From Tessaracoccus sp. MC1865 (GTDB lineage Bacteria > Actinomycetota > Actinomycetes > Propionibacteriales > Propionibacteriaceae), in the NCBI RefSeq assembly GCF_017815535.1, contig NZ_CP072596.1, forward strand, positions 1,116,001-1,180,000: a DNA stretch of 64,000 nucleotides, given 5' to 3'. The notes under the pieces are model-generated. The model made no database searches. It was not told the origin of the DNA and was given only the letters and a program-made list of their open reading frames with translations. Numbering within the stretch: the stretch's first letter is position 1; each line of letters starts with the position of its first letter. Position numbers and translations under genes: made by a program. Below are positions 52,456 to 54,032 of this stretch, piece after piece.

Positions 52456-52617
52456 GAATGTCCTTCCGGAGGGGCCCGGCATGCCTCAGTGGAGCACCGT
52501 GGCTGGCCGTGGCCGCTGCCTCCACCCTACCGTCGGGTCGCTCTGCCACCGTGCGGAGGCAGACCAACGAGCTTGCGCTCGCGTCGAGGGAGGGTCGTCG
52601 ATTTCCTGAGACAACAC

Positions 52618-52633
52618 ATGGTCGGGGCGACAG
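52618..52633. repeat. 16-bp direct repeat, left of IS481 element
   Basis: ATGGTCGGGGCGACAG, identical to 53956-53971, where it covers the tRNA-Pro acceptor end and CCA. Immediately before it, 52604-52617 (TCCTGAGACAACAC) resembles the right IS terminus (53941-53955), so a trace of a second IS end may be present. Confidence 0.75.
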
Positions 52634-53955
52634 TGTGTGATCTCAGGACATCGGAATAGGGTGTCTCGGGTCATCGGAATACCCCTGTCTCAGGTCATCG
52701 GAATGGCTCTGCGAGTCTGCGTGGATGGCAGCAGCGAAGCGCAGATTGGTGATTGAGGCGGTCTTGGCGGGGATGTCCCAGTCCGAAGCAGCCCGCCGGT
52801 ACGAGGTCTCCCAGGGCTGGATATCCCGGTTGATGAAGGCCTATCGCCGCGAGGGTCCTGCCGTGTTCGAACCGGCCTCGAGAGCCCCGAAAACGATCGC
52901 CAACGCCACCGACCCGACCGTGGTGGAGATGATCCTGGCCCTGCGCGCAGACCTCGCCACTCAAGGACTCGACGCCGGCGCTGAGACGATCGGCTGGCAT
53001 CTGCAACGCGCACCGGCATCACCGTCAGCCGCGCCACGATCCACCGGATCTTGAACCGCCACGGCCAGGTCACACCCCAACCCCGGAAACGGCCCCGCTC
53101 TTCCTGGATCCGGTTCCAGGCCGAGCAGCCCAACGGCTGCTGGCAATCCGACTTCACCCACTACCGCCTGGCCTCCGGCCACGACATCGAGATCATCTCC
53201 TGGATCGACGACTGCTCCCGCTACGCGCTACACATCTCAGCCCACCGCCGCATCACCGCGGCGATCTCGGCCGCAACCTTCACCCAAGCCGCTGACAAGT
53301 ACGGATACCCCGCATCCACCCTCACCGACAACGGCATGGTCTACACCGTCCGCTTCGCCACCGGCCGAGGTGGCCGCACCCCGCTGGAGGAACTCCTGGC
53401 CGAACACCACATCATCCAGAAGAACTCCCGACCCAACCACCCCACCACCTGCGGCAAAGTCGAACGCTTCCAACAGACCATGAAGAAATGGCTCGCCGCG
53501 CAACCCGACCAGCCCACCACGATCGCCGAGCTCGACACCCTCCTCCACACATTCGTCGAGGTCTACAACCACCACCGCGGGCATCGCTCCCTGCCCCACC
53601 ACGCCACCCCGGCCACGGTCTACACCACCACACCCAAAGCCAGCCCAGACCCCACCCAGCCCGGCAGGCCCCACGACCGGGTCCGCCTCGACCACGTCGA
53701 CACCCAAGGCGTCGTCACCCTGCGCCACGCCGGCCGCCTCCACCACATCGGCATCGGCCGCACCTACAAGGGAACCTGCATCAAACTCCTCATCCAGGAC
53801 CTCGACATCACCATCATCAACGCCACCACCGGCGAGATCCTGCGCGAGCTCACCCTCGACCCCCACAAGGACTATCAACCCATCGACCCGAAAAAGAAGA
53901 AGCCCGAACCCTCACAATGAGGGTTCAGGCTATTCCGATGTCCTGAGACATCACA
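52634..53955 (+). mobile_element. IS481-family insertion sequence
   Basis: About 1,322 bp bounded by inverted ends: left from 52634 and right to 53955, sharing the 19-base core TCTCAGGACATCGGAATAG with a divergent outer 7 bases that keep TGTG. A 16-bp direct repeat (52618-52633 and 53956-53971) abuts both ends and looks like a target duplication. The right copy belongs to the 3' end of tRNA-Pro. Inside the left end the core recurs as TGTCTCGGGTCATCGGAAT (52662-52680) and TGTCTCAGGTCATCGGAAT (52686-52704), probable transposase-binding repeats. The transposase frame is broken near 53005. Confidence 0.85.
52725..53920 (+). pseudogene. IS481-family transposase, frameshifted
   Basis: The N-terminal part (from ATG 52725) has the helix-turn-helix ESEAARRYEVSQGWISRL-like region (QSEAARRYEVSQGWISRLMK). 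The C-terminal part, in another frame, has the integrase core: CWQSDFTHYRL, WIDDCSRYAL, TLTDNGMVYT and KVERFQQTMKKWL supply the D-D-E residues. The natural joining sequence, RTGITVSRATIHRILNRHG, is found in the second frame from about 53008, so one base is missing near 53003-53010. IS481 transposases are normally a single frame, so I treat this as inactivation or a base error, not programmed frameshifting. The tail is Lys/Pro-rich (DPKKKKPEPSQ). Confidence 0.8.
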
Positions 53956-53956
53956 A

Positions 53957-54032
53957 TGGTCGGGGCGACAGGACTCGAACCTGCGGTCTCCTGCTCCCAA
54001 AGCAGGCGCGCTAGCCACTACGCTACGCCCCG
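53957..54032 (-). tRNA. tRNA-Pro (UGG)
   Basis: Folds as a 76-nt cloverleaf including an encoded CCA. Acceptor arms are CGGGGCG (54026-54032) and CGCCCCG (53961-53967) with discriminator A. Anticodon stem CCTGC/GCAGG encloses the loop TTTGGGA, giving anticodon UGG with G at position 37. T-arm AGGTTCGAGTCCT is normal. The insertion sequence ends 1 bp beyond the CCA, and the last 15 tRNA positions are duplicated on its other side. Confidence 0.95.

Follow-up and report, generated by a model that had tools for sequence, protein, structure and literature searches.

A one-gene clade of IS481 insertion sequences that very probably inserts site-specifically at the T-arm of tRNA genes

The window, a stretch of 64,000 nucleotides of the genome of Tessaracoccus sp. 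MC1865, carries an IS481-type insertion sequence of 1322 bp on the plus strand (52634-53955), recognised by its terminal inverted repeats, an exact flanking duplication and transposase family matches. Its right end faces an intact tRNA-Pro(tgg) gene on the minus strand (53957-54032, ARAGORN), the insertion target. The IS ends are TGTGTGATCTCAGGACATCGGAATAG on the left and TGTGATGTCTCAGGACATCGGAATAG on the right, and both begin with TGTG, a TGT start being typical of IS481 ends. The right terminal inverted repeat TGTGATGTCTCAGGACATCGGAATAG occupies 53930-53955, and the same sequence was found at tRNA 3' ends at three further loci (L002, L003 and L004). At the left end (52634-52706), three tandem TGTCTCAGG(A/T)CATCGGAAT-like motifs were read from the sequence; they are putative transposase binding sites.

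An rve/DDE transposase is the only gene content of the element. In the window copy it is frameshifted into two frames, which correspond to the two halves of the NCBIfam model NF033577 (transpos_IS481). Part 1 (52725-53054, plus strand, 109 aa, from the list of open reading frames) contains the HTH, ends early, and matches HTH_28 and NF033577 positions 2-89. Part 2 (53051-53920, plus strand, 289 aa) lies in the other frame, contains the DDE/rve core and the C-terminal domain, and matches rve, rve_3 and NF033577 positions 102-284. The two pieces scored 51 and 149 bits against NF033577, which has a cut-off of 224 bits; the related copies L033 and L012 scored 245.7 and 254.7 bits, and L010 and L005 were slightly under the cut-off with 223 and 223.5 bits. 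In relatives, the transposase is a single open frame of about 400 aa. The window copy is thus a frame-split, degraded member and, because its transposase is divided between two frames, is probably dead. The genes in the 1322-bp element include no Cas1-type integrase, the mark of a casposon, and the one-gene element has no TnsC ATPase, TniQ or guide RNA, the marks of Tn7-like elements and CASTs. There was also no integrase gene inside it, and its duplication is bounded by the IS termini rather than being a tyrosine-integrase att site.

The duplication is a 16-bp repeat, ATGGTCGGGGCGACAG, with one copy to the left of the IS (52618-52633, corresponding to tRNA nt 62-77) and an exact match on the right (53956-53971). 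The right copy consists of nt 62-76 of tRNA-Pro(tgg), including CCA, plus one base. The sequence-only reading had placed an IS481 element flanked by a 16-bp repeat at the tRNA-Pro 3' end and had proposed that the repeat covers the acceptor end and CCA, and both proposals agree with these coordinates. A chance origin of the repeat was rejected; it is exact and occurs just twice in the window. The same reading had noted that IS481 duplications are normally up to about 15 bp. Target duplications in this family do usually reach up to about 15 bp, and 15 bp is normal in this IS481 group, so a duplication of 16 bp is not in itself unusual. Since nt 62-76 were duplicated by the insertion, the tRNA stays whole, and all 76 nt of the gene were 100% identical to the uninterrupted gene of several genomes of the same genus. 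At 26 other tRNA-Pro(tgg) loci in this genus, the IS was absent throughout, and none had a second copy of the 16-mer in the stretch examined; the double 16-mer that a pre-existing repeat would have left in empty sites was therefore not found.

Outside the left copy of the duplication there is a further trace, TCGATTTCCTGAGACAACAC (52598-52617, plus strand), which was identified by local alignment to the right end CGATGTCCTGAGACATCACA with a score of 15, while the maximum score of 19,917 random 20-mers from the window was 10. This bears out the earlier observation that the outer sequence resembles the right IS end. No IS sequence beyond the trace was detectable in the window. The order of older right end, duplication and newer left end beside a tRNA was found at nine sites, the window included, and the outer copies were better preserved at the other eight (L009, L010, L034, L072, L075, L102, L122 and L218); L009 and L034 contain two elements in tandem. 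Each new insertion enters next to the tRNA and leaves the earlier copy on its far side, so that the outer end stems from the earlier event. From the sequence, two insertions at this site with subsequent loss of one copy had been suggested. Repeated insertion is supported by the nine sites, and the roles of the copies have to be assigned differently, as the newer copy is the tRNA-proximal one and the outer trace is what remains of the older copy. The repeat unit of about 30 bp described in that reading is explained by repeated hits at the same site. The best explanation of the outer terminus in the window, judged from these alignments, is that it is the decayed right end of an older copy at the same tRNA.

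The insertion displaced the native 3' flank of the tRNA by about 1.3 kb. On the minus strand, the right end of the IS contains a terminator-like hairpin followed by a T-rich stretch in the tRNA sense (53888-53931), with AGCCTGAACCCTCATTGTGAGGGTTCGGGCTTCTTCTTTTT lying 3' of the tRNA. Most right ends of the surveyed copies have long hairpins, with a mean of 13.5 bp compared to 7.0 bp in shuffled sequences, and the T content after the hairpin is 4.7 per 10 nt compared to 2.7 (tRNA sense). The hairpin may replace the native terminator of the tRNA. The part of the hairpin at 53901-53931 holds GAACCC...GGGTTC, which resembles the T-arm motif of the target; this resemblance is not universal in the clade.

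The right end was matched at three further places in the complete genome, each directly 3' of a tRNA gene, namely tRNA-Pro(ggg), tRNA-Pro(cgg) and tRNA-Arg(tct). Right ends therefore lie 3' of four of the 45 tRNA genes, comprising all three tRNA-Pro genes and tRNA-Arg(tct). When the 3' flanks were compared with the 26-base IS end, these four matched at 25-26 of 26 positions, and the other 41 matched at 12 or fewer. L002, L003 and L004 are old remnants in this genome in which just the tRNA-proximal end with its hairpin is kept.

Other copies were searched for in 199 genomes of the family, with the protein and the 68-bp right end as queries, and in overlapping sets of 393, 395 and 396 genomes at the levels of order, class and phylum, with a profile of seven transposases. 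In total, the survey covered about 1,000 genomes as well as collections of plasmids and viruses. After duplicates were removed, 109 distinct junctions between a right end and a T-arm were obtained, always in one orientation, and the close transposase relatives had their right end at a T-arm wherever they were found. The span from nt 62 to the IS end was 15 bp in 62 junctions, 16 bp in 44, 17 bp in two and 18 bp in one. The left cut lies at nt 61|62, and junction positions are constant to within about 1 bp. At 71 sites the span recurs next to the left end of the IS, and at 64 of these the repeat is perfect over 15 bp. ARAGORN identified 79 complete tRNA targets across 14 isotypes (Pro, Arg, Ser, Ala, Leu, Met, Lys, Thr, Tyr, His, Val, Gln, Glu and Gly); about 30 of the 109 targets were not scored as complete tRNAs, and many of these resemble 3' fragments. 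One genome (G748) has several copies at different tRNAs (Arg, Tyr, Ala and Ser). The sole plasmid match was on an Arthrobacter megaplasmid, at a T-arm fragment and with a 15-bp duplication, and the sole IMG/VR match (L218) was a tandem arrangement at tRNA-Pro(tgg). The phage records searched contained no match to the element. A scan of genome contigs with ORF2 yielded one close relative, L005, in a Cellulomonas MAG, in which a tRNA T-arm follows the right end close to where the contig stops. The possibility of site-specific targeting of tRNA 3' ends, which had been raised for the window locus, is thus supported by 109 junctions, which span many genera and 14 isotypes and have their cuts within about 1 bp, and random targets were looked for among the other copies and not seen. 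Targeting and repeated insertion therefore both apply.

These junctions bear on whether the IS copies could be passengers, brought in by prophages or integrative elements whose att sites lie in tRNA genes, with the repeats being att cores. The targets that ARAGORN did not score as complete are in keeping with such an origin, as many start near the anticodon loop like integrase att sites. However, the IS ends form the exact boundaries of the repeats, which start at nt 62 and measure 15-16 bp, relatives that are not at tRNAs make duplications of the same size, and at 79 targets the IS lies directly against a complete tRNA. As the element itself also lacks an integrase, we rejected the passenger reading as a general cause and consider it highly improbable.

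In a tree of 118 transposases, the copies at T-arms fell into one clade of 88 members (SH-aLRT 100). Within this clade, 79 of the 80 assessable copies were at T-arms, one was not, and eight were not assessable, whereas none of the 28 assessable relatives outside the clade was at a T-arm. Two changes account for the T-arm trait over the whole tree. The clade trait, as defined here, consists of a right end at T-arm nt 76/77 and a left junction at 61|62, and the window copy has both. Several apparent exceptions were examined: L120, L172, L174 and L018 have a tRNA or T-arm, L074 and a second match of L075 adjoin another IS, L080, L086, L097 and L110 are cut off by the end of a contig, truncation accounts for L119 and L140, and L108 retains only a piece of the size of the duplication. 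Relatives outside the clade have duplications of about 15 bp at unrelated sites, which suggests that the stagger is likely older than T-arm targeting and that the choice of target is what changed in the clade. The sister element L171 (genome G590), outside the clade, is not at a tRNA.

The one off-target copy in the clade, L130, is not in a tRNA; its insertion site, GGTTCGTATG, lies in a palindrome. This copy has a 15-bp duplication, the same spacing as at tRNA sites, and shares GGTTCG with them. This site points to recognition of a DNA sequence, GGTTCRANTC; the T-arm is conserved in all tRNAs anyway, which confounds inferring the motif from the targets. A different route to the same pattern is that targeting is real and proceeds via RNA or a host factor of tRNA processing or transcription, not by direct recognition of T-arm DNA. 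The targets are transcribed, structured genes, and there is a precedent in the tRNA-associated yeast retrotransposons, which use Pol III factors. We nevertheless regard this route as unlikely, because tRNA fragments also serve as targets, the site of L130 was used outside any tRNA, with its shared GGTTCG and spacing, and the left junction is constant to single-base precision.

It could also be supposed that insertion is random and that copies survive only at tRNA 3' ends, where they are harmless or supply a useful terminator. The three remnants in the Tessaracoccus genome, which retain just the tRNA-proximal hairpin end, fit this idea and suggest that this end is sometimes kept. Selection of this kind would not, however, fix the junction to 1 bp or to one orientation, nor would it retain copies on T-arm fragments that do not work, and related IS481 elements persist elsewhere, so we find survival after random insertion barely credible.

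The reading that we prefer, and hold to be very probable, is that a one-gene IS481 clade has a transposase that inserts site-specifically at tRNA T-arm DNA, with a duplication that preserves the tRNA. The target, cut positions, orientation, duplication, restriction to the clade and repeated insertion were established by comparison. In the proposed mechanism, the transposase would read the conserved T-arm GGTTCRANTC (nt 52-61) as DNA. The left end would be joined between nt 61 and 62 and the right end 15-16 bp further on, just past the CCA position, in constant orientation. Repair of the stagger would then duplicate nt 62-76/77 and keep a complete tRNA 3' end, and the hairpin of the right end with its T-rich tail would stand in for the displaced native terminator. 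As the T-arm would be restored after insertion, the site would be open to further insertion, and repeated insertion would give tandem arrays with the newest copy adjoining the tRNA. We infer that DNA recognition needs only the transposase, that tRNA transcripts end at the hairpin, and that clade copies with an intact gene are active.

A structure of the transposase was predicted from 54 sequences with a mean pLDDT of 84. Its N-terminal part is helical and contains HTH domains, and there are a DDE core and, at the C-terminus, a beta domain. The nearest solved folds were TnsB of ShCAST, IstA and MuA, and the fold also resembles retroviral integrases. Residues kept in the clade and not outside it were H144, E159, K238 and R293 by the catalytic core and R324, D328 and H346 in the C-terminal domain (numbering of L010). 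These seven residues are candidates for governing target choice.

tRNA genes are classic landing sites, used by phages and islands via tyrosine integrases and by Tn7-like elements via targeting proteins or guide RNAs. With the IS481 family (NF033577) the clade has in common an HTH and an rve DDE domain in one ORF, TGT...ACA ends, a length of about 1.3 kb, and the 15-bp duplications of neighbouring groups. The published IS481 members covered here have other targets than the tRNA T-arms used by the clade: ISLxc2 inserts at NCTAGN (PMC2516522), and in P. fluorescens SBW25 IS481 insertions lie in REP sequences (PMC11708052). Casposons, which are Cas1-solo transposons, also use tRNA 3' ends, with 14-15 bp duplications and a target reaching into the tRNA gene, and in M. 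mazei the duplication includes just the final 4 bp of the tRNA (PMC6977970). In contrast to the clade, casposons are large, multigene elements that use a Cas1 integrase. Tn7-like elements and CASTs use tRNA genes as safe sites (PMC11406308); they share TGT/ACA ends with the clade, and their TnsB is a structural relative of its transposase. Their targeting depends on TniQ proteins or guide RNAs, whereas elements of the clade carry one transposase gene and lack accessory genes. The eukaryotic DDE transposons called Dada insert inside tRNA and snRNA genes, also in tandem (PMC3706591). Their transposase is unrelated, their duplication is 6-7 bp, and each family uses one type of multicopy gene, while the clade hits many isotypes and single-copy genes that remain intact. 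No earlier description of a tRNA-targeting IS481 element was found in the open-access literature, a scope that does not extend to ISfinder, TnPedia and subscription journals.

We consider it probable that one IS481 transposase, unaided by helper proteins or a guide RNA, reads universal T-arm DNA and inserts in one orientation, that its stagger rebuilds the tRNA and its own end serves as the terminator, and that the system is autonomous and occurs across Actinomycetota. An insertion sequence that has a single DDE transposase gene, inserts with single-base precision into single-copy tRNA genes and leaves them whole would be a simple route to a safe, universal site. As close relatives form an equal duplication of 15 bp at other sites, the clade is a compact system in which to study how one transposase chooses its target. 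It also suggests that the 3' flanks and terminators of tRNA genes are replaced time and again by insertion sequences, and it may provide a one-protein tool for inserting DNA at tRNA genes in a defined orientation.

Several further observations were made on individual copies. The targets of L071, L073, L079, L092, L131-L133, L138 and others are tRNA 3' pieces alone, many of them beginning near the anticodon loop, and resemble att-site remnants of integrative elements; insertion may sometimes have come before or after other elements integrated at att sites in tRNAs. At L060, 3' of tRNA-Leu(caa), there is a derivative of about 220 bp with the IS right end and a 16-bp duplication on each side, which can be read as an internally deleted or MITE-like copy. 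Copies of the sister element in genome G590 (L233-L236) lie within a palindromic repeat, GATTTCGGTGCGC...GCGCACCGAA, with an apparent 15-bp duplication, and may represent another type of targeting to a specific sequence. In genome G022, members of a more distant IS481 group (L244-L247) are inserted in alike repeated sequences, GGAGAATCGACCACTG...CGATTTTC, which suggests that this group prefers a repeat as its target.
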